From: Burkholderiales bacterium
GTDB taxonomy: Bacteria; Pseudomonadota; Gammaproteobacteria; Burkholderiales; Ga0077523
DNA: 64,000 nt
Reading direction: 5' to 3'
NCBI GenBank assembly: GCA_022843925.1
Contig: JALHMS010000001.1
Location: forward strand, 12,378-76,377
The first letter of the stretch is position 1; each line of letters opens with the position of its first letter. The position numbers and the translations under genes were made by a program. Shown here piece after piece: positions 18,209 through 28,592 of the stretch. The notes under the pieces were generated by a model. That model did no database searches. It had not been told where the DNA came from and saw only the letters and a program-made list of their open reading frames with translations.

Positions 18209-20362
18209 GTGCCGTCCACCGAGTCGTCCTCCGTGCCGCCCGACGCCCCCTCCCCGCGCTCCCGCGCGACGCCGCCCGCTATTCCCGGTGTCGCGCCCGC
18301 GGTTGCCGCGAAGCTCGCAACGCTCGGCATCGCCCGACCCTTCGATCTCGTGCTGCATCTGCCGATGCGCTACGAGGACGAGACGCGGGTCCTGCCGATG
18401 GCCGACGCGCCGATCGGCTTGCCCACGCAGGTGGAAGGCGTCGTCGTCGATGCCGAGGTCCGCGTCCGGGGGCGTCGACAGCTCGTGGCGCGGGTGCGCG
18501 ATCGCACCGGGCAACTCCTCGTACGCCTGCTGCATTTCTATCCGAACCAGCAGAAGCAGCTCGCCGAGGGCCAGCAGGTGCGGCTGCTCGGCGAGATCCG
18601 GCCGGGCTTCGACGGGCCCGAGATGGTGCATCCGCGCATCCGGCCGGTGACCGATTCGACACCGCTTCCCGACCGCCTCACGCCCGTCTACCCCACCACG
18701 GCCGGACTTTCCCAGCACGCACTCCGACTCGCGGTGCATGCTGCGATGGGGCGCTGCGCGCTGGACGAGACCTTGCCGGCCGGGCTGCTCGCGAAGCTCC
18801 GCCTGCCGGGATTCGAGGACGCAGTGCGTCTGCTGCACGATCCACCTGCCCACGTGGACCCGGCGGATCTCGAAGCGCGCCGCCATCCCGCGTGGCAGCG
18901 CATGAAGTTCGACGAGCTTCTCGCGCAGCAGCTCTCGATGCGCCTGCACCGCCGGCGGCGCGACACCGCGCGGGCGCCCCGCATCACGGGTGGCGACGAG
19001 CGTGCCGATCGCCTGTTCGCCGGGCTGCCGTTCGCGCTCACCGGTGCCCAGCGCCGGGTGCTCGCGGAAATCCGCGCCGATCTCGCGCGGCCGCATCCGA
19101 TGCAGCGTCTGCTGCAGGGCGATGTCGGGAGCGGAAAGACCATCGTCGCGGCCGCCGCGGCGCTCGCGGCCATCGATGCCGGATACCAGGTGGCCGTGAT
19201 GGCGCCGACGGAGATCCTCGCCGAGCAGCACCAGGCGAAGTTCCGCCAGTGGCTCGAACCACTGGGCATCACCGTCGCGTGGCTCGCCGGCGGGCTGGCC
19301 GCCAAGGAGCGCCGCGCGGCGCTGGAAGCCGTCGAGTCGGGGCGCGCCGCCGTCGCGGTGGGCACGCACGCACTCTTCCAGAAGGAGGTCACCTTCGCCC
19401 GCCTCGCACTCGCGATCGTGGACGAGCAGCATCGCTTCGGCGTGCGGCAGCGGCTGGCACTCCGTCACAAGGGCGCGGATGGCGACGAGATCCCGCACCA
19501 GTTGATGATGAGTGCCACGCCGATCCCGCGGACGCTCGCCATGAGCTACTACGCCGATCTCGACGTGTCGGTGATCGACGAGATGCCACCGGGCCGTACG
19601 CCGGTGGTCACCAAGCTGGTGTCCGAGTCGCGCCGCGACGACGTGCTGCACCTCGTGCGCGATACCTGCGCCGGCCGCAACCAGGTCTACTGGGTGTGCC
19701 CTCTCATCGAGGATCCCGGCACCACCACGCCCGCACCCGGCGCCCGTGGCCGCGCCCGCGCACCCGCCGTCCCGCTGGAGCTGCAGAACGCCATCGACAC
19801 GCAGGCGCACCTCGCCGAGGCCCTGCCGGACCTCAGGGTGGGCCTCGTCCACGGGCGTCTCAAGGCCGACGAGAAGGCCGCGGTGATGGGGGCCTTCAAG
19901 CGCGGCGAGGTCCACGTGCTCGTGGCGACCACGGTGATCGAAGTGGGTGTCGATGTCCCCGCCGCGACCCTGATGGTGATCGAGCACGCCGAGCGCATGG
20001 GCCTCGCGCAGCTCCACCAGTTGCGGGGCCGCGTGGGTCGCGGGGGTGGTGAGTCCGCGTGCATCCTGCTCTATCAGCAGCCGCTGTCGGAGACCGCCCG
20101 CGCCCGCCTGCGGGTCATCTACGAGCACACCGACGGGTTCGCCATCGCCCGGGAGGACCTCCGACTGCGAGGCCCCGGCGAACTGCTCGGCAGCCGGCAG
20201 AGCGGTGTGCCGATGCTGCGGTTCGCGGATCCGGAGCTGGACGTCGAACTCCTCGAAGCGGCCCGGACTGCTGCCGACACGTTGTTGCGCGACGCGCCCG
20301 AGGCCGCGAACCGGCACGTCGAGCGCTGGCTGGGCGGACGCGAGGAACTGCTCCGCGTGTGA
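18209..20362 (+). CDS. recG: RecG, ATP-dependent DNA helicase
   Basis: This double-strand DNA translocase reverses stalled replication forks and processes Holliday junctions. The N-terminal wedge domain (OB fold) runs from GVAPAVAAKLATLGI to about residue 250. Helicase motifs follow: Walker A GDVGSGKT near residue 303, DEQH near 404, MSATPIPRTLA, and the motif VI region HQLRGRVGRGG. The C-terminal RecG block contains ARLRVIYEHTDGF and LRGPGELLGSRQSG. The start is uncertain. GTG 18209 is chosen because a promoter lies at 18143-18171. GTG 18233 is equally possible, and ATG 18098 is less likely. There is no good ribosome site at any of them. A Pro/Ala/Arg-rich insert lies between helicase domains at about residue 510. 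Confidence 0.95.
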   Translation: MPSTESSSVPPDAPSPRSRATPPAIPGVAPAVAAKLATLGIARPFDLVLHLPMRYEDETRVLPMADAPIGLPTQVEGVVVDAEVRVRGRRQLVARVRDRTGQLLVRLLHFYPNQQKQLAEGQQVRLLGEIRPGFDGPEMVHPRIRPVTDSTPLPDRLTPVYPTTAGLSQHALRLAVHAAMGRCALDETLPAGLLAKLRLPGFEDAVRLLHDPPAHVDPADLEARRHPAWQRMKFDELLAQQLSMRLHRRRRDTARAPRITGGDERADRLFAGLPFALTGAQRRVLAEIRADLARPHPMQRLLQGDVGSGKTIVAAAAALAAIDAGYQVAVMAPTEILAEQHQAKFRQWLEPLGITVAWLAGGLAAKERRAALEAVESGRAAVAVGTHALFQKEVTFARLALAIVDEQHRFGVRQRLALRHKGADGDEIPHQLMMSATPIPRTLAMSYYADLDVSVIDEMPPGRTPVVTKLVSESRRDDVLHLVRDTCAGRNQVYWVCPLIEDPGTTTPAPGARGRARAPAVPLELQNAIDTQAHLAEALPDLRVGLVHGRLKADEKAAVMGAFKRGEVHVLVATTVIEVGVDVPAATLMVIEHAERMGLAQLHQLRGRVGRGGGESACILLYQQPLSETARARLRVIYEHTDGFAIAREDLRLRGPGELLGSRQSGVPMLRFADPELDVELLEAARTAADTLLRDAPEAANRHVERWLGGREELLRV

Positions 20363-20444
20363 CCGCAGGCGGACTGCCGGACGCCTTCGTTCGGCGCCCG
20401 ATGTCGCGGAGGGCCGCATCGGGAGTCGGTTTCGAAAGGTGCGG

Positions 20445-20453
20445 TGCTATGAT
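20445..20453 (+). promoter_or_regulatory. Extended -10 promoter of the hyf-like operon
   Basis: The sequence TGCTATGAT contains the extended -10 TG plus TATGAT (5/6 to consensus) at 20448-20453. No -35 is evident. Transcription would start near 20460, giving a leader of only about 17 nt before the hyfB ATG at 20477. Confidence 0.5.
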
Positions 20454-20476
20454 TTCCGCATCCTTCCTGGCCGCCC

Positions 20477-22489
20477 ATGAGCTTCGTCTCCTTCTCGCCT
20501 CTTCCCTGCGTACTCGGGATCGCGGTCTACTGGATAGCGCTCGGCATCCTGGGTCTCACCCAGCGCGCGGACCGTGACGCCGGACGCATTCTCTACGCGG
20601 CGGGTGCGGCGGGCGGGCTGCTGCTGGCCGTGACAGCGGCATGGGCCCTCGGCGATGCGCCCACGACAGTCCAGTTGCCGCTGGGCCTGCCCGGACTCCC
20701 GTTCCATCTGCGCCTCGACAGCCTCGCCGCCTTCTTTCTCGTGCTGCTCGGCCTCGCCGTCACCGGGATCTCGCTCTTCTCGACCGGCTACTTCACCTCC
20801 GGCAGCACGACCAACGACCGCGTCACCTGCCTGCACTACCACTTCTTCCTGGCCGCGATGGTGTTCGTCCTCCTGGCCGACGACGCCTACATGTTCATGG
20901 TCGCGTGGGAATCGATGGCGCTCGTCTCCTACTTCCTCGTCACGTCGGACCATCGATTCGCCGAGATCCGCAGTGCCGGCTTCCTGTATCTCGTGGTCGC
21001 GCACGTGGGGGCCATGGCCATCCTGCTGTGTTTCGGCGTGCTGCACGGCCCGGATGGCGGGTATACCTTCGAGGCGATGCGCAGCGCGGACCGTACCCCT
21101 TTCTGGGCGACGACCGCCTTCCTCCTCGCGCTCGTCGGATTCGGGGCGAAGGCGGGTTTCCTCCCGCTGCATGCATGGTTGCCGGAGGCACACCCGGCGG
21201 CGCCCTCCCCGGTCTCCGCACTGATGAGCGGCGTGATGCTGAAGACGGCGATCTACGGGCTGCTGCGCATCGGCTTCGATCTCCTGCCGATCCAGTACGC
21301 GTCATGGGGCGTGATCGCGCTGGCGCTGGGCCTCGTCACGATGCTCTATGGCGTGCTCTTCGCTGCGGTGCAGACCGACATGAAGCGGCTGCTCGCCTAC
21401 TCGTCCATCGAGAACATCGGCCTCGTGCTGGCGGCCATCGGCCTCGCCATCGTCTTCCGCGCCCATGCCATGCCGGCGCTCGCCGCGCTCGCGCTGTGTG
21501 CAGCGCTCTTCCACTGCCTCAATCACGCCCTCTTCAAGAGCCTGCTGTTCCTCGCCACCGGCGCCGTGATGCACGCGACCTCCCAGCGCAGTCTCGGCCG
21601 CCTCGGTGGGCTCATCCATCCGATGCCCTGGGTGGCCGGGGCGGCGCTCGTGGGCACGCTCGCGATCGCCGGGCTGCCGCCGCTGAACGGATTCGTCTCG
21701 GAGTGGCTGCTGCTGCAGGCCTTCCTCCTCTCGCCGGAACTGCCCGATCCCTACCTCCGCATGATCGTGCCCGTGGCCACGGCCGCGCTGGTGCTCGCGG
21801 CGGCCGTGGCCGCCTACGTGATGGTGAAGTTCTACGGCGTCGTGTTCCTGGGGCAGCCGCGCGAGCCCTCGCTCCGCTATGCCCACGATGCGGACGCCTG
21901 GCAGCGCGCCGGGCTACTGTTCCTCGTCGCGGGCTGCGTGCTCGCCGGACTCTTTCCGGTGAAGGTCCTGCACGGGATCGATCACGTCGCCACGGGCCTG
22001 CTCGGCCGCGGGATGGGCGACGCCGTGGGCGGCCATTGGCTCCACGTCACCCCGGTGTCCGCCGAGCGCGCGAGCTACAGCCCGTTGCTCGTCCTGGCCG
22101 GCATCCTCGGCGTGGTCTCCGCCGTGTTCCTGTACGTGCGGGTCCGCTATCACATGCGCACCCGCCGTGCGCCCGCCTGGGACTGCGGATTCCCGGCGCA
22201 GACCTCGCGCATGCAGGACACGGCCGAGGGCTTCGGCCAGCCCATCAAGCAGATCTTCGAGCCCTTCTTCCGGATCGAACGCGAGATGCCTTCGCCGTTC
22301 GACGGTGCGCCGCGCTATCGCGCCAGGACGGAGGACAAGCTCTGGTACGCGCTGTATCTGCCGCTCGTGCGGCTCGTGGAGCGGATCGCGGGCTGGGTGT
22401 CGCGACTGCAGCACGGCCGCATCCAGTGGTATCTCGTCTACAGCTTCGCGACGCTGCTCGCGCTGCTCGTGCTGATCCGGTGCCAGTGA
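20477..22489 (+). CDS. hyfB: HyfB-like antiporter-type membrane subunit of an Ehr complex
   Basis: This 670-residue polytopic protein belongs to the NuoL/NuoM/HyfB family. About 14 to 16 membrane segments make up the proton- or cation-translocating part of complex I-like enzymes. The antiporter core shows AWESMALVSYFLV, GFGAKAGFLPLHAWLPEAHP and a loop with QTDMKRLLAYSSIENIG. These include the conserved membrane Glu and Lys residues. A cytoplasmic stretch WDCGFPAQTSRMQDT, typical of HyfB, precedes the last segment. It is first in a tight operon: its TGA overlaps the hyfC ATG by one base. The large subunit of this complex lacks nickel ligands, so 'hydrogenase-4' would mislead as a functional name. 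Confidence 0.9.
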   Translation: MSFVSFSPLPCVLGIAVYWIALGILGLTQRADRDAGRILYAAGAAGGLLLAVTAAWALGDAPTTVQLPLGLPGLPFHLRLDSLAAFFLVLLGLAVTGISLFSTGYFTSGSTTNDRVTCLHYHFFLAAMVFVLLADDAYMFMVAWESMALVSYFLVTSDHRFAEIRSAGFLYLVVAHVGAMAILLCFGVLHGPDGGYTFEAMRSADRTPFWATTAFLLALVGFGAKAGFLPLHAWLPEAHPAAPSPVSALMSGVMLKTAIYGLLRIGFDLLPIQYASWGVIALALGLVTMLYGVLFAAVQTDMKRLLAYSSIENIGLVLAAIGLAIVFRAHAMPALAALALCAALFHCLNHALFKSLLFLATGAVMHATSQRSLGRLGGLIHPMPWVAGAALVGTLAIAGLPPLNGFVSEWLLLQAFLLSPELPDPYLRMIVPVATAALVLAAAVAAYVMVKFYGVVFLGQPREPSLRYAHDADAWQRAGLLFLVAGCVLAGLFPVKVLHGIDHVATGLLGRGMGDAVGGHWLHVTPVSAERASYSPLLVLAGILGVVSAVFLYVRVRYHMRTRRAPAWDCGFPAQTSRMQDTAEGFGQPIKQIFEPFFRIEREMPSPFDGAPRYRARTEDKLWYALYLPLVRLVERIAGWVSRLQHGRIQWYLVYSFATLLALLVLIRCQ

Positions 22490-23442
22490 TGCTGCCCCAG
22501 TACGCCCTCTCGCAGCTGCTCGAAGCCCTGTTCGCGGTGGTCGTCGCGCCGCTCGCCCTAGGCTGGGTCAACCAGTGCCGCGCGTGGCTGCAGAACCGCC
22601 GCGGCCCCGGCGTCACGCAGCCCTACCGCGTGATCGCCAAGCTCTTCCGCAAGGAAGTGGTGCTGGCCCACCAGGCATCGTTCCTGTTCCGCGCAGTCCC
22701 GTACTTGGTCTTCGGCTGCATGGTGCTGGCCACGGGCATCGTCCCGATGCTTGCCACGGCGCTGCCGTTCGCGCCGGCCGCGGACGTCATCGCGCTCGTG
22801 GGGTTGCTCGCCCTCGCCCGGATCTTCATGGCGCTCGCCGCGATGGACACCGGGACGGCCTTCGGATCGCTCGGCGCGCGGCGCGAGATGCTCGTCGCGG
22901 CGCTCGCGGAGCCGGCACTGCTCATGGTGTTCTTCATGCCGTCGCTCATCGCGCGCTCGACGTCGCTCACCACGATCGTCGAGACGCTGGCGCACCAGCG
23001 CGTCGCGGTGCATCCGAGCCTCGCCTTCGCGGCAGTGGCGTTCGTGATGGTGATGCTCGCGGAGAACGCCCGCATCCCGGTCGACAACCCCGGCACCCAT
23101 CTCGAACTGACGATGATCCACGAGGCGACGATCCTCGAGTATTCGGGACGCCATCTCGCGCTGATCGAGTGGGCGCACGCGCTGAAGCTGCTCGTCTACG
23201 CCACCATCGGCATCGCGCTCTTCGTGCCGTGGGGCATCGCCGAGGCGGGCCATTGGGGCGCATTGCCGACGGCCGTGCTGGCGCTCGCCGCGAAGCTCCT
23301 GGTGGGCGGCGCGGCGCTCGCCGTGACCGAGACGGTTTCGGCCAAGCTGCGCATCTTCCGCGCGCCGGAGTTCCTCGCCACGGCGTTCCTGATGGCCGTG
23401 CTGGGCATGCTGACGCACCTGCTGCTGGAGGCCACCGCGTGA
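22489..23442 (+). CDS. hyfC: HyfC/NuoH-like membrane subunit of the Ehr complex
   Basis: This 317-residue membrane protein of the NuoH/HyfC/EchB family anchors the soluble arm to the membrane arm. Typical landmarks are the N-terminal RRGPGVTQPYRVIAKLFRKE loop and the acidic ENARIPVDNPGTHLELTMIH region that lines the quinone or proton channel in complex I. Both are complete. The start overlaps the hyfB stop (TGATG) and the end overlaps the hyfE GTG. Length is close to E. coli HyfC. Confidence 0.92.
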   Translation: MLPQYALSQLLEALFAVVVAPLALGWVNQCRAWLQNRRGPGVTQPYRVIAKLFRKEVVLAHQASFLFRAVPYLVFGCMVLATGIVPMLATALPFAPAADVIALVGLLALARIFMALAAMDTGTAFGSLGARREMLVAALAEPALLMVFFMPSLIARSTSLTTIVETLAHQRVAVHPSLAFAAVAFVMVMLAENARIPVDNPGTHLELTMIHEATILEYSGRHLALIEWAHALKLLVYATIGIALFVPWGIAEAGHWGALPTAVLALAAKLLVGGAALAVTETVSAKLRIFRAPEFLATAFLMAVLGMLTHLLLEATA

Positions 23443-24110
23443 GCCTCGCCAATCAGCTCGTCGATCTCATCGCGGCGCTGATGCTGCTCACGTCGTTCGC
23501 GATGCTCGCGCAGCGGCGGCTGACGGCGCTCGTGGATCTGCTCGCGCTGCAAGGTGTGCTGCTGACCGCTGCGACGCTGGTCGCCGCGTGGGTCACCGGT
23601 CACGCCCACCTGTACCTCTCCGCGCTGCTCAGCCTCGTCCTGAAGGTCGTCGTGCTGCCGACGCTGCTGCGGCGACTCGTGCGCCGCCTCGACCTGCAGT
23701 GGGATCGCGAGGCGCTCGTGAACACGCCGACCACGATGCTGGTCGGCATCGTTCTCGTCATCGTCGCGTTCAACCTCGCGCTGCCGATCTCGGCGCTGTC
23801 GGGCTCCATCCTCCGCGGCGCCCTCGGCATCGCGCTCGCGAGCGTCCTGCTCGCCTTCCTCATGATGATCACGCGCCGCAAGGCGGTGTCGCAGGTGATC
23901 GGCTTCCTCGCGATGGAGAACGGGCTCTTCTTCGCCGCGACGAGCGTCACGTACGGGATGCCGATGATCGTGGAACTGGGCATCGCGCTCGACGTGCTGG
24001 TGGCGGCCTTCGTCTTCGGCATCTTCTTCTTCCGCATCCGCGAGACCTTCGACAGCCTCGACACGCGGCATCTCGAGACGCATCCGGCGGGCGAGGGGGA
24101 GGACGTCTGA
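23439..24110 (+). CDS. hyfE: HyfE-like membrane subunit of the Ehr complex
   Basis: This 223-residue protein has about six or seven membrane helices. Its NuoK-like part contains IGFLAMENGLFFAATSVTYG, where a conserved membrane Glu sits as in NuoK. It starts with GTG at 23439 inside the end of hyfC (4-nt overlap), and its last base is shared with the hyfF start. Its role is ion translocation together with HyfB and HyfF. Confidence 0.88.
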   Translation: MSLANQLVDLIAALMLLTSFAMLAQRRLTALVDLLALQGVLLTAATLVAAWVTGHAHLYLSALLSLVLKVVVLPTLLRRLVRRLDLQWDREALVNTPTTMLVGIVLVIVAFNLALPISALSGSILRGALGIALASVLLAFLMMITRRKAVSQVIGFLAMENGLFFAATSVTYGMPMIVELGIALDVLVAAFVFGIFFFRIRETFDSLDTRHLETHPAGEGEDV

Positions 24111-25561
24111 TGCCGGAACTCGCGGTCCTGCTCCTCCTGCCGCTCGCGGGTGCTGTGACCTTCGCGTTCCTCGGCGCGTCGGCGCGCGCACCCGAGGCCA
24201 ATGCGGCGTTCTCCGGCTTCACGGCACTCGCGGCGGTCGTGCTCGCGATCCGCGTGCTCGCCGACGGACCGCAGCTCGCGATGCGCGATCTCTTCCACGT
24301 CGACGCGTTCAGCGTGTTCCTCGTGGCGCTCACCGCCCTCGTCGGCTTCACGACGTCGCTCTTCAGCCGGCCGTACATGCGCAACGAGGTGGTGGCCGGC
24401 CGCGTGGGGCCGACGGCGCTGCGGCTCTACCACGCGATGTACCAGCTGTTCGTCGGGACGATGCTGCTGGCGCTCACGACGAACAACATCGGGATCCTCT
24501 GGGTGGCGATGGAGACCGCGACCCTCACGACGGTGCTGCTCGTGAGCCTCTACCGGACGCCGGCCAGCGTCCGGGCGGCGTGGAAGTACTTCATCCTCTG
24601 CGGGGTCGGCATCGCGCAGGCGCTGTTCGGCACCATCCTGCTTTACCTGGCGGCGGAGCGCGTCCTCGGCGGTGGCGGCACCGCGCTCCTTTGGACGCAG
24701 CTGGAAGGCGTGAAGGACCAGCTGGAACCCTCGGTGGTCACGATCGCGTTCGTGTTCCTGCTGGTGGGGTACGGCACGAAGGCGGGCCTCGTCCCTCTGC
24801 ACAACTGGCTTCCGGATGCGCATGCCGAGGGCCCGACGCCGATCACCGCGGTGCTGTCCGGCCTGCTGCTCAACGTGGCGCTCTACGCGATCGCGCGGAG
24901 CAAGGTGCTCGCGGACGGTGCCCTCGGCACGCCCCTGGCGGGCAATCTCATGATGGGGTTCGGGCTGCTGACCGTGGTCGTCGCGGCCTTCATGACGCTT
25001 CGCCAGACCGACGTGAAGCGCCTGTTCGGGTATTCGTCCGTGAAGCACATGGGCCTCATCACCTTCGCCTTCGGCATGGGTGGCGCGGCGGCGACCTTCG
25101 CGGGACTCCTCCACATGACCGTGCATTCGCTCACCAAGTCCGCCATCTTCTTCGCCGTGGGACACGCCACGCAGAAGGCCGGCACGCAGGTCATCGACGA
25201 GATCCGCGGCCTCGTGCACACCAGCCCCGCCGTGGGCTGGGGACTGATGCTGGGCGGGATCGCCATCCTCGGCATGCCTCCCTTCGGCGTGTTCGCGGCG
25301 GAGTTCCTGCTGCTCACCACGGCGATGAGCGCGCAGCCCTGGGCGGCGCTGGTGCTGCTCGTGGCGCTCGCCGTGTCGTTCGGCGGCATCCTGTGGCGGG
25401 TGCAGGCGATGGTGTTCGGGGCGCCCAACCTGAAGCCCCTGCTGCATCGACCGGCGATCCTGCCGGTGTTCGTGCACCTCGGGCTCACACTGCTGCTGGG
25501 TTTCTATCTCCCGCCTTTCCTCGCGGCGTGGTACCGCGAGGCGGCCCGGCTCATCGGCTGA
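24110..25561 (+). CDS. hyfF: HyfF-like antiporter-type subunit of the Ehr complex
   Basis: This 483-residue member of the NuoM/NuoN/HyfF family is a second antiporter-like membrane subunit. Conserved features include WVAMETATLTTVLLVSLYR (membrane Glu) and GYGTKAGLVPLHNWLPDAHA (membrane Lys). It also has QTDVKRLFGYSSVKHMG and a HMTVHSLTKSAIFF helix. It overlaps hyfE by one base, and hyfG follows 3 bp later. It is complete and has all the charged residues usually required for ion transport. Confidence 0.9.
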   Translation: MPELAVLLLLPLAGAVTFAFLGASARAPEANAAFSGFTALAAVVLAIRVLADGPQLAMRDLFHVDAFSVFLVALTALVGFTTSLFSRPYMRNEVVAGRVGPTALRLYHAMYQLFVGTMLLALTTNNIGILWVAMETATLTTVLLVSLYRTPASVRAAWKYFILCGVGIAQALFGTILLYLAAERVLGGGGTALLWTQLEGVKDQLEPSVVTIAFVFLLVGYGTKAGLVPLHNWLPDAHAEGPTPITAVLSGLLLNVALYAIARSKVLADGALGTPLAGNLMMGFGLLTVVVAAFMTLRQTDVKRLFGYSSVKHMGLITFAFGMGGAAATFAGLLHMTVHSLTKSAIFFAVGHATQKAGTQVIDEIRGLVHTSPAVGWGLMLGGIAILGMPPFGVFAAEFLLLTTAMSAQPWAALVLLVALAVSFGGILWRVQAMVFGAPNLKPLLHRPAILPVFVHLGLTLLLGFYLPPFLAAWYREAARLIG

Positions 25562-25564
25562 CCC

Positions 25565-27112
25565 ATGCGCCTCGCCGATCTTCCCTTCCCGTTCGAATCC
25601 GCCCCGGGGCCGGCGGCCGTCGGTTTCGCCGAGGTGACGGCCGACCAGTGGCAGGCCACCGCGGGCCGCCTCCGGTCGGCGGGCGCCACGCTAGTGGCGC
25701 TGTGGGCGGCCGACCGGCGCGACCTGCACGACGGCTTCGAGATCCGCGCAGCGTACGCCCTCGAGGACGGCCTCGCGTGCCTGCGGCTCCCGCTGCCTGC
25801 GGAGGCCCCGGACTATCCCGATCTGGGCAGGCACTTCCCGGCGGCGGGACGCATGCAGCGCGCGGCGTTCGACCTGACCGGCGTGGCGCCGCTCGATCCG
25901 GCGGACGGTCGCCCCTGGCTGCGGCATGGCGCCTGGCCCGCGGGCGCGCATCCCCTTCGGCGGGACGTGGTCGCGCGGAGCGTCTGGCCCGCGGTGGCCG
26001 ACGACTACACCTTCGTGAGCGTCTCGGGCGACGGCGTCCACGAGATCCCCGTCGGTCCGGTGCACGCGGGGACCATCGAGCCCGGCCACTTCCGGTTCTC
26101 GGTGGTGGGAGAGCGCGTGCTGCGCCTCGAGGCGCGGCTGGGCTACAAGCACAAGGGCATCGAGAAGCGCTTCGAGTCGATGTCGCTCGACGAGGGCGTG
26201 GCGCTGGCCGGGCGCGTGAGCGGGGACTCGACGGTGGCGTTCGCCTGGGCCTACGCGATGGCCGTCGAACAGCTCTCCGGGGCGACGATTCCTCCCCGCG
26301 CGGCGGCGCTTCGCGCGATGCTCCTCGAGCGGGAACGGGTGGCCAACCACCTCGGGGATCTCGGCGCGCTCGGCAACGACGCCGGCTTCGCCTTCGGCCT
26401 CGCGCAGTTCTCCCGCCTCAAGGAGGACTGGCTGCGCCTGAATGCGCGGTTCTGGGGGCATCGCTATCTGATGGACCGGATCGTTCCCGGGGGGCTGACG
26501 GACGATCTCGACGACGCCCATCTGCCGGTGCTGGCCCGGCAGGTCCACGATCTGGCGGACGAAGTCGTTCGGCTGCGTCGCATCTACGACGACCACGCCG
26601 GACTGCAGGACCGCCTGCGAGGTTGCGGTGTCGTGTCGAACGACCTGGCGCAGCGGCTCGGCCTGACGGGGCTCGCGGCGCGGGCGAGCGGGATGGCCGT
26701 GGACCTGCGCGTGGGTCGTGCCGTGCCGCCCTACGACGGGCTCGACGTGCGCTGCGCCACGCGCTCGGAAGGGGATGTCGCGGCCCGCGCGGCGGTCCGG
26801 TTCGAGGAGGTGGCGGAATCGCTGCGCCTGATCGGTCTGCTCGCGGAGACGCTGCCCGACGGCCCCACGCGCGTCGCGGTGCCGTCGGCGCGGCAGGGGG
26901 CCTGCGGCATCGGGCGCGTCGAGGGCTGGCGCGGCGAGGTGCTGGTGTTCGTGGAGGCCGGTGCGGATGAGCGGATCCGCCGCTGCCATCCGCACGATCC
27001 GTCCTGGCAGAACTGGCCCTTGCTGGAACATGCGATCCTCGGGAACATCGTCCCCGACTTCCCGCTCATCAACAAGTCGTTCAACCTGAGCTACAGCGGG
27101 GTGGACCTGTGA
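25565..27112 (+). CDS. hyfG: HyfG-like large subunit lacking all NiFe ligands (Ehr type)
   Basis: This 515-residue protein fuses a NuoC-like N-terminal part (1-130) to a NuoD/NiFe-large-subunit-like part (150-515). True group 4 hydrogenases have CxxC near the middle and DPCxxC near the end. Here the first site reads VSGDS (218-222) and the second DPSW (478-481), so no Ni ligand remains. The [18 protein letters not shown] segment (161-178), matching the quinone-site loop of NuoD, is kept. The C-terminus [19 protein letters not shown] is of the type described for 'energy-converting hydrogenase related' complexes. It therefore cannot make or oxidise H2 in the usual way, and its substrate is unknown. 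The ATG at 25565 follows hyfF by 3 bp. Confidence 0.9.
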
Positions 27113-27156
27113 TGCCGCCCCGCGTCGCGGACCTCCCCCGAGCGAGACCCTGACCC

Positions 27157-27669
27157 TTGCAGCACATCCTCCGACAGATCGCCCGGACGGGCATCGTGAC
27201 CGAGGCCTATCCCGAGGCCGACGAATCCCTGCGCGCGACCACGGAACGCCTGCAGCGCGAAGTGCTGGCGGCCTTCGACGGCGCGCTCGTCATCCGCCAC
27301 GTCGATGCGGGTTCGTGCAACGGCTGCGAGTTGGAGATCCACGCGGCGAACAATCCGTATCACAACCTCGAGGGGCTCGGGATCCGGTTCGCGGCGAGCC
27401 CGCGCCACGCGGATCTCCTGCTCGTCACGGGGCCGGTGTCGCGGCACATGGAGGAAGCGCTGAAGCGCACGTACGACGCCATGCCGGCGCCGAAGCTCGT
27501 CGTCGCGATCGGGGACTGCGGCTGCACGGGCGGCGTCTTCGGAGAGAGCTATGCGAGCCGCGGACGCGTCTCGAACGTGATCCCCGTGGACGTCGCCGTG
27601 CCGGGCTGTCCACCGACACCGGTGGCGATCATGCAGGGCATCCTCACCGCGATCGCGAGGGCACGATGA
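27157..27669 (+). CDS. hyfI: HyfI/NuoB-like small FeS subunit of the Ehr complex
   Basis: This 170-residue NuoB-like protein binds one [4Fe-4S] cluster next to the large subunit. Cluster ligands are visible: C54 and C57 in GSCNGCE, C121 in GDCGCTGG and C151 in PGCPPTP. The proximal cluster is thus intact although the large subunit has lost its metal site. A TGA directly upstream (27151-27153) forces the start to TTG 27157, with a purine-rich GAGCGAGA before it. No ferredoxin-like HyfH/NuoI gene lies between it and its neighbours. Its stop overlaps the ubiA start (ATGA). Confidence 0.9.
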
Positions 27670-28592
27670 GCACGCACGTGTCGCCCTCGCCGGGGGGGGG
27701 TGGCGTGTCGTTCCGGCAGCGGCTCGGGCTGTACTTCCGCCTGACGCGGCTCGACAAACCCATCGGCACGTTGCTGCTGGCATGGCCGACACTGTGGGCC
27801 CTCTGGATCGCCGGCGCCGGACGGCCGGACTGGAAGGTCGTGCTCATCTTCATGGCGGGGACGCTGCTGATGCGTTCGGCCGGCTGCGCAATGAACGACT
27901 ACGCCGACCGGGATTTCGATCCGCACGTGGCGCGTACGAAGCACAGGCCGCTGGCGACACGGGCGATCTCGACGAAGGAGGCGCTCGCCATCGCCGGCGG
28001 CCTGTCGCTCGTCGCGTTCCTGCTCATCATGCCGCTCAACGGGCTGACGATCGCCCTGTCGTTCCCGGCGCTGGCCCTGGCGGCCTCGTACCCCTTCTTC
28101 AAGCGCTTCTTCGCGATCCCGCAGGCGTACCTGGGCATCGCGTTCGGCTTCGGGATCCCCATGGCGTTCGCGGCGCTCACGGAGACGGTGCCGCCGATCG
28201 CGTGGGTCCTGCTGCTCGCGAACGTCTTCTGGACCATCGGCTACGACACCGAGTACGCGATGGTCGACCGCGCGGACGATGTCCGCATCGGCATCCGGAC
28301 ATCGGCGCTCCTCTTCGGGCGCTTCGACGTGGCAGCCGTGGCGATCTGTCACGGGGCGTTCCTGCTGATCCTCGCGGGCTGCGGTCTGTACATCGGGCTC
28401 GGGCCGGCGTGGTATGCCGGGCTCGCCGTGGCGGGCGTCATGCTGGCCCGGCAGGTCCGGGGCATCCGCAGCCGGGATCCCGCAGCCTGCTTCCGCGCCT
28501 TCCTGCACAACAACCGCGTGGGCGGCACCGTGTTCGCGGGGCTCGCTGCCGACGCCCTCATCTTCGGGAGCGACGCTTGGAACTCGGTCTGA
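27666..28592 (+). CDS. ubiA: UbiA, 4-hydroxybenzoate octaprenyltransferase
   Basis: This 308-residue membrane prenyltransferase joins the polyprenyl tail to 4-hydroxybenzoate in ubiquinone synthesis. Both aspartate-rich motifs are present: NDYADRDFD at 77-85 and YAMVDRADD in the second half. Several membrane helices lie between and after them. The start overlaps hyfI by four bases, so it is translationally coupled to the Ehr genes. Codons 9-12 contain a run of nine G (27692-27700), a slippage-prone tract inside the N-terminus. The frame is intact as given. Confidence 0.95.

Follow-up and report, generated by a model that had tools for sequence, protein, structure and literature searches.

A nickel-less, ferredoxin-less hyfBCEFGI complex of the Ehr group and its possible part in ion and anion homeostasis

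What a hydrogenase-4-like complex might do once its large subunit has lost the nickel ligands is the question raised by hyfBCEFGI, a six-gene operon in a 64,000-nucleotide stretch of DNA from a Burkholderiales bacterium (GCA_022843925.1; hereafter the window). Complexes of the energy-converting hydrogenase related (Ehr) group stand between hydrogenases and respiratory complex I; a main paper on them is that of Marreiros et al. from 2013. Passages in several publications describe them as nickel-less complexes without an assigned function (PMC6349859, PMC10284858, PMC10432482, PMC4378227, PMC6728331), and one such passage voices the suspicion that they couple redox chemistry to ion translocation (PMC6349859). 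A first-pass annotation had placed the window's operon in this group. Here we ask whether the complex can be a hydrogenase, which redox and ion-translocating parts it keeps, and what the genomes of its relatives suggest about its role.

Operon layout and host genome

The six adjoining genes occupy window positions 20477–27669 on the plus strand, with 4-base overlaps at the hyfB/hyfC, hyfC/hyfE and hyfE/hyfF junctions, 3 bases between hyfF and hyfG, and 44 bases between hyfG and hyfI. The features are as follows.

20477..22489, plus strand: hyfB, NuoL/HycC-like antiporter subunit, 670 amino acids (NCBIfam hydrogenase 4 subunit B, 870.7 bits)
22486..23442, plus strand: hyfC, NuoH/HycD-like subunit, 318 amino acids (PF00146)
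23439..24110, plus strand: hyfE, NuoK-like subunit, 223 amino acids (NCBIfam hydrogenase 4 membrane subunit, 96 bits, below the cut-off of 136)
24107..25561, plus strand: hyfF, NuoM/NuoN-like antiporter subunit, 484 amino acids (NCBIfam hydrogenase 4 subunit F, 794 bits)
25565..27112, plus strand: hyfG, large subunit without nickel ligands, with NuoC-like and NuoD-like parts, 515 amino acids (open reading frame, alignments, tree and fold match)
26219..26230, plus strand: HyfG site 1, S219-G-D-S222 against C-G-I-C (alignment)
26996..27007, plus strand: DPSW, HyfG residues 478–481, a conserved family motif and no ligand site (alignment)
27089..27100, plus strand: HyfG true site 2, S509-Y-S-G512 against C-Y-S-C (alignment)
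27157..27669, plus strand: hyfI, NuoB/HycG-like subunit with one [4Fe-4S] site, 170 amino acids, TTG start (PF01058)
27666..28592, plus strand: ubiA, UbiA prenyltransferase, its start overlapping the hyfI stop (ATGA)

Upstream of the operon lies recG (named by eye), and ubiA, an SDR gene and a ubiD-like gene follow downstream, the operon sitting between recG and ubiA (20362–27666). In Betaproteobacteria the recG–ubiA interval often holds ubiC, which was not seen there in the window. Since ubiA is no recurrent neighbour of the operon in relatives, it is probably not part of the complex. The host genome measures 5.57 Mb and is 99.15% complete, and the nearest named relative of HyfG among the matches listed is that of Betaproteobacteria bacterium Ga0077532, at 97% identity.

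Loss of the nickel ligands

The closest solved relative of HyfG is HycE of the Escherichia coli formate hydrogenlyase (7z0s, E 1.2e-55), in which we take C241, C244, C531 and C534 to be the NiFe ligands, in agreement with the CGIC and CYSC motifs. At the first site, HyfG has RVSGDS opposite RVCGIC of HycE, with S219 in place of C241 and S222 in place of C244; at the second, S509 and G512 of NLSYSG (507–512) stand opposite C531 and C534. The first-pass annotation had held both CxxC sites to be replaced and was right about the first, but it had located the second at DPSW (478–481), about 30 residues from its true place. DPSW is no ligand site, because it aligns with AATY in HycE and TPSF in NuoCD; its P479 and S480 are kept in 121/121 sequences and are common to NuoCD.

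The central statement of that annotation, that HyfG has no nickel ligand, stands. We aligned 121 HyfG sequences, comprising the window's and 120 of the 121 extracted relatives of its type (L152, with a stop or X, was dropped). At the four true positions, 118 have no cysteine and three have one, and we therefore regard the loss as a fixed trait of the family rather than an effect of chance or sequencing error. The single cysteine of L094, L095 and L146 lies at the first ligand position (RICGDS, RICADS and RSCGDS). A search of the same alignment for displaced but conserved cysteine ligands found none, the best other column holding cysteine in 57/121 sequences.

HyfG also ends directly past the former second site and thus has no C-terminal tail for a maturation protease. 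The window's genome gave no match to HypD, which was matched in 4 of 14 control genomes including E. coli, and none to the hydrogenase large-subunit family PF00374, which was matched in E. coli and other controls. HypD is absent from 26 of the 45 genomes that carry the window's Ehr type; its presence in the other 19, compared with 142/369 genomes overall (p 0.63), amounts to no association either way, which shows only that the Ehr complex needs no nickel maturation. As HyfG cannot hold nickel, the complex is almost surely not a hydrogenase, and the record labels 'hydrogenase 4', 'formate hydrogenlyase' and 'nickel-dependent hydrogenase' are misleading for these genes.

A type of Ehr complex without a ferredoxin subunit

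Assignment to the Ehr group fits the gene set as a whole: a large subunit homologous to group 4 and devoid of CxxC nickel sites, a small subunit that keeps the proximal [4Fe-4S] ligands (115/115), and antiporter-like and NuoH-like membrane subunits in one cluster. The traits of a group 4 [NiFe] hydrogenase, namely the four cysteine ligands, HypD in the genome and a HyfH/HycF relay subunit, were not found. In an unrooted tree of 48 chosen HyfG rows, the 38 rows of the window's type cluster together (100/97). Other complexes without the four cysteines make up the neighbouring group of six rows (99/98), E. coli HycE and HyfG and an Azospirillum formate hydrogenlyase stand apart (100/99), and NuoCD occupies a very long branch.

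A feature overlooked by the first-pass annotation is that the window's Ehr type is, as far as gene content can be read, without the ferredoxin subunit HyfH/NuoI and without HyfA. We base this on annotated operons, on the lack of space between the genes and on the finding of no HyfH, HycF, NuoI or HyfA match within operons of this type; the sole other match, in L070, is weak and lies on the opposite strand about 1.7 kb beyond hyfG. Annotated plasmid copies in Rhodococcus, Methylocalor, Burkholderia stagnalis and two rhizobia, Rhizobium ruizarguesonis and R. rhizogenes, have the six genes and no ferredoxin, with a small gene of no assigned kind between hyfF and hyfG in Methylocalor and the order I-B-C-E-F-G in Rhodococcus. 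A two-cluster ferredoxin motif scan of 126 loci is weak evidence, as it missed all five sister-type loci; it returned 3 loci in the looser area and 2 loci in another run. None of its matches is plausible as an operon gene, that of L017 being a frame that overlaps hyfC and hyfE in another frame.

The proximal-cluster cysteines of HyfI, said earlier to remain, are indeed invariant (C54, C57, C121 and C151 in 115/115), and because HyfH/NuoI and HyfA are both lacking, this single cluster is the only recognisable redox centre. In the absence of a ferredoxin-like electron-entry subunit, coupling to electron flow appears less certain than had been stated.

A sister nickel-less type is found in L158–L162 and Mycobacterium branderi (L165), with the order C-E-F-G followed by a HyfI-type gene and, in several loci, hyfB after the latter. 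In L161 of this type, HyfI carries a fused two-cluster ferredoxin (with Fer4_7 among its matches), a HycF tblastn search also matches L158–L160, and M. branderi has a 264-residue gene annotated 'ferredoxin' after hyfG. Both Ehr types occur in genomes G040, G234 and G358.

We confirmed at least 573 HyfG relatives of any degree, of which 80 were kept. A sample of 369 genomes from the class yielded HyfG matches at E 1e-20 in 66, and 42 to 45 of these clearly carry the window's type. The figure of 45 used throughout was counted by hand at a best match of at least 42% identity and includes a fragment (G302) and a partial copy (G066); the remaining genomes have weaker matches of 25–35%, such as sister-type, hydrogenase or NuoD proteins. 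Aromatoleum and Azoarcus are hosts among the matches listed, and plasmids of Cupriavidus, Burkholderia, Paraburkholderia, Rhizobium and Azospirillum also carry the type. The full set of six genes was present in 90 of the 93 loci with room for them, the exceptions being L126 and L152, without a hyfI match, and L151, with hyfG alone. Two copies look broken: that on a plasmid of Rhizobium johnstonii TP60 (L121) has frame changes in hyfC and hyfF, and that of G315 (L152) has them in hyfB and hyfC, its hyfG also being interrupted by an in-frame stop. L064 has a frame shift in hyfF; beyond these three, no frame break was flagged in hyfB, hyfC, hyfF or hyfG among the 127 loci.

The operon is scattered in one family of the sample, where G032 (L151) has only hyfG and G284 (L126) has no hyfI nearby; in G177 (L181) a SulP gene is followed by hyfF and hyfG, with no hyfB, hyfC or hyfE in 15 kb. 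Two Ehr operons share a locus in L048 and L023, the second copy in L048 belonging to a different clade (48% identity).

A rebuilt pocket and a conserved membrane arm

In the 121 sequences, 97 HyfG positions are kept at 97% or more, of which 42 are common to HycE and NuoCD, 20 to HycE only, 4 to NuoCD only (A233, D272, P479 and S480) and 31 to neither. Positions conserved to this degree and unlike both HycE and NuoCD include A168, G169, I171, D221, D265, N503, K504 and N507, with D221, in site 1, kept in 121/121. Since positions in the former active-site region are conserved, many of them unlike HycE and NuoCD, that region is, judged by conservation, rebuilt and held constant rather than decaying.

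The invariant D272 corresponds to D325 of NuoCD and D139 of Thermus thermophilus Nqo4. In an ungapped alignment with Nqo4, H38 and Y87, which we take to be the quinone ligands of the complex I 49-kDa subunit (T. thermophilus numbers; the role of D139 is likewise our assumption), are replaced by I171 and G220. For this reason a quinone site of the complex I style is not supported in HyfG, and a quinone might bind in another way. An AlphaFold model of HyfG, made from an alignment of 43 sequences (the window's and 42 of the 80 kept relative loci), is predicted to resemble HycE first among the families listed in the fold comparison (7z0s_E, Z 41.9, rmsd 2.8, 480 residues), with complex I next. The core of the model is good; segments 147–195 and 489–515, which form the pocket, have pLDDT below 50, and we therefore take no pocket geometry from it.

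The charged membrane residues, which the first-pass annotation had reported as remaining in all four membrane subunits, prove near-invariant among relatives. HyfB keeps K225, H350, K354 and E409 in 102/102 sequences and E145 in 101/102; HyfC keeps E142, D200, E207 and E218 in 106/106, and likewise H205, where HycD and NuoH have glutamate; HyfE keeps E160 and E179 in 108/108; and HyfF keeps E136, K225, K304, H340 and K344 in 114/114 and E399 in 111/114. The conservation counts exclude sequences with a stop or X or shorter than 75% of the window's length (2 for HyfI, 6 for HyfC, 5 for HyfF, 15 for HyfB and 6 for HyfE). By sequence, the ion-translocating membrane arm is intact.

Neighbouring genes in relatives

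No redox gene—ferredoxin, 2-oxoacid oxidoreductase or other—recurs beside the operon in the loci of relatives. Genes for metG, mrp/apbC, dnaE and histidine kinases (named by eye) do recur and were judged to mark insertion places or chance. Three other kinds of gene were found near the operon in the 127 loci, which are not independent of one another: RHH_9 (Pfam, a small ribbon-helix-helix regulator) in 26, a SulP anion transporter in 13, mostly from Sulfuricella, Gallionella and their kin, and a carbonic-anhydrase-like hexapeptide protein in 4, which NCBIfam matches best to CcmM and carbonic anhydrase, in every case below cut-off. In L015 a SulP gene precedes hyfB by 34 bp, in G177 one lies upstream of hyfF and hyfG, and in Pseudomonas benzenivorans (L047) SulP, RHH_9 and hyfB follow one another.

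RHH_9 was matched in 17 of the 369 genomes, 14 times strongly (E 1e-12 or better). Six of the 14 strong matches adjoin the window's Ehr type, seven lie near SulP in genomes without that type (L169–L173, L175 and L176) and one is near neither (L174). A second search, of 398 genomes of the phylum and limited to strong matches, with two already-seen regions set aside, gave 11 new regions, 3 by Ehr, 5 by SulP and 3 by neither (L214, L218 and L219). Pooled, the 25 strong regions, 11 of them from the later search, divide into 9 by Ehr, 12 by SulP and 4 by neither. The window's Ehr type is present in 6 of the 14 strong-RHH_9 genomes versus 45/369 overall (Fisher p 0.003). The 45 Ehr genomes have 78 SulP matches, including some split genes, which puts the density of SulP at no more than about 0.56 per Mb and the chance of meeting it within any given 20 kb at about 0.011. 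Among plasmids, RHH_9 lies by SulP in Sulfuricella denitrificans and by neither gene in Pantoea sp. At-9b and Cupriavidus sp. P-10. In L220 (G673:C3:243001-263000) the Ehr operon is flanked on both sides by RHH_9, together with matches to polyamine aminopropyltransferase-like, YjdM and DUF1275 (YoaK) proteins in mirror order; YjdM, a PhnA-type zinc ribbon, is near RHH_9 or Ehr in L118, L164, L175, L177, L178, L218, L219 and L220.

The RHH_9-linked SulP of L169 is typed by its score as DauA (904.7 bits, cut-off 614), presumably the same protein as YchM. NCBIfam names DauA a C4-dicarboxylate transporter, and bicarbonate is therefore not established as the substrate. E. coli YchM is counted among bicarbonate transporters in a passage of PMC6458275.

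None of SulP, RHH_9 or a carbonic anhydrase gene stands beside the operon in the window, and RHH_9 was not found in the window's genome. Strong RHH_9 matches occur in just 6 of the 45 Ehr genomes, and SulP lies within 10 kb of the operon in one (G177) against about 0.5 expected, some contigs being short. RuBisCO is present in 22/45 Ehr genomes versus 168/369 overall (Fisher p 0.64), a hand count that took in matches only at E below about 1e-80 and omitted the 19 weaker ones of 187, that of the window's genome included; for want of an association, the idea of a tie to carbon fixation via RuBisCO was dropped. Elsewhere in the window's genome, a SulP gene lies beside a beta-carbonic anhydrase gene (C4:14371-16456), and DabA (C16:18622-20988) is on a separate contig from the operon (C1). 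In Acidithiobacillus caldus, a hyfBCEFG cluster adjoins a beta-carbonic anhydrase gene, for which the relevant passage suggests pH and CO2 homeostasis through an H2-evolving enzyme (PMC3826726).

Proposed function and alternatives

We tentatively favour a reading in which hyfBCEFGI encodes a ferredoxin-less, H2-independent Ehr complex that moves ions in the service of anion, bicarbonate or pH homeostasis. A soluble electron carrier would dock where the HyfH/NuoI subunit would otherwise sit, and the cluster of HyfI would pass electrons to or from a small substrate in the former NiFe pocket, a quinone being the simplest guess. This electron step would drive, or be driven by, the movement of H+ or Na+ through HyfB, HyfC, HyfE and HyfF. 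Going by the neighbours of relatives, such ion movement might serve anion, bicarbonate or pH homeostasis, and the complex might replace a SulP-family transporter or work alongside one. We infer this physiological link from relatives; the window itself lacks such neighbours, and RuBisCO shows no association. A bolder form, which we hold to be doubtful, casts Ehr as an energy-coupled anion/bicarbonate-homeostasis complex that is functionally interchangeable with DauA/BicA-type SulP transporters under RHH_9 and whose former hydrogen site would power ion movement.

The full [4Fe-4S] site of HyfI and the intact pump arm would suit a ferredoxin (or flavodoxin):quinone oxidoreductase that serves redox balance or generates low-potential electrons and is not specially linked to anions or CO2. 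A soluble carrier could dock where the integral ferredoxin subunit has been lost, and the hosts include Aromatoleum and Azoarcus, which use low-potential electrons for aromatic compounds. We nevertheless consider this unlikely: genes for ferredoxins, 2-oxoacid oxidoreductases or other redox proteins do not recur next to the operon, the complex I quinone ligands are not kept, and the RHH_9/SulP pattern would be left unexplained. A non-redox machine driven by the proton-motive force, either an antiporter or a DAB-like device for vectorial CO2 hydration with a purely structural cluster, would account for the lack of an electron-entry subunit and sit well with the SulP and carbonic-anhydrase-like neighbours of some relatives; in DAB2, CO2 hydration is coupled to a subunit of the NuoL kind (PMC13144422). 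We rate it as rather improbable, in that the invariance of all four cluster cysteines (115/115) is difficult to account for unless electrons are transferred, the operon has no DabA-type gene beside it and no zinc site was recognised in HyfG by eye.

Two further readings look backwards to hydrogenase 4, and both seem to us extremely improbable. The view that the complex is a genuine [NiFe] hydrogenase whose ligands are displaced or unusual could appeal to HycE as the best match in sequence and fold, and to the 20 of 97 conserved positions common to HycE only against 4 common to NuoCD only. It founders on the lack of any other conserved cysteine column in HyfG (best 57/121), on the absence of HypD and PF00374 from the window's genome and of HypD from 26/45 Ehr genomes, and on the missing C-terminal tail for a maturation protease. 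A decaying relic would explain why nickel ligands, HyfA, HyfD, HyfH and HyfJ are missing relative to E. coli hyf, and the broken copies L121 and L152 and the hyfF frame shift of L064 are what decay would produce; against it stand the conservation of HyfG, in which 97 positions are kept at 97% or more across the 121 sequences, the rarity of frame breaks, with none beyond those three loci flagged in hyfB, hyfC, hyfF or hyfG, and the company of all six genes in 90/93 loci and in Rhodococcus.

Comparison with known systems

With one recognisable cluster and six subunits, the window's Ehr type may be among the simplest relatives of complex I. It is also common, being present in 45 of the 369 genomes of the class, with culturable hosts such as Cupriavidus metallidurans, Aromatoleum and Rhizobium, and the link of RHH_9 to SulP transporters offers a concrete physiological lead. 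Nickel-less Ehr complexes and hyfBCEFGI clusters as such are already published, as the portions of the sources cited here attest. The distinction of a type without the ferredoxin subunit, the conserved pocket residues and the RHH_9/SulP pattern were not found in the published literature searched. That literature, with subscription journals largely outside its coverage, yielded no tie of Ehr to SulP or RHH_9 and no function test of a hyfBCEFGI complex; a word search of the Cupriavidus necator proteome paper PMC8591527 found no mention of hyf, and PMC12361115 does not mention Ehr.

Other Ehr complexes have in common with the window's type the subunits of group-4/complex-I kind, the lack of nickel ligands and the antiporter subunits, and differ in that the ferredoxin-type subunit is absent here. 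A group 4 complex of Nitrospira without the motif is described in part of PMC12542776. The same six gene names recur in hyfBCEFGI of Cupriavidus metallidurans (Rmet_4666-4671), in H16_A2196-A2201, in Acidithiobacillus ferrooxidans and in Nitrospira, the last two likened by gene names alone; the C. metallidurans HyfG, presumably from the published Rmet locus, is 59% identical to the window's. Published hyfBCEFG(I) clusters appear in sections of PMC2864759, PMC5596200, PMC7735108 and PMC3826726, where formate hydrogenlyase is supposed or no tested function is given and no RHH_9/SulP link is drawn; one section likens the C. metallidurans cluster to an incomplete operon (PMC2864759) and another speaks of a 'non-hydrogenase catalytic subunit' (PMC7735108).

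E. coli hydrogenase 4 and formate hydrogenlyase (HyfG and HycE), the best match in sequence and fold, have HyfB, HyfC, HyfE, HyfF, HyfG and HyfI in common with the complex, whereas the four cysteine ligands, HyfA, HyfD, HyfH and the C-terminal tail, and with respect to hyf also HyfJ, are missing here. Respiratory complex I (NuoB/CD/H/K/L/M/N) has the same core fold and pump residues; the window's operon, in contrast, has no NADH module and no NuoI, and its HyfG has I171 and G220 in place of the quinone ligands H38 and Y87. Mrp antiporters have no NuoB/NuoD-like subunits, unlike the present complex with its HyfI and HyfG. The DAB/MpsAB inorganic-carbon complexes use a NuoL-like subunit for carbon supply, and DAB2 is described in part of the same source as a carbonic anhydrase driven by the proton-motive force (PMC13144422); here, by contrast, no DabA (PF10070) accompanies the operon's NuoL-like subunit, the genome's one DabA being on C16. 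If the bolder form of the proposal holds, the Ehr complex of the window would be a further offshoot of complex I in the field of NDH-1MS and DAB, in which a former hydrogen site now hosts a redox or CO2-linked step that powers ion movement.
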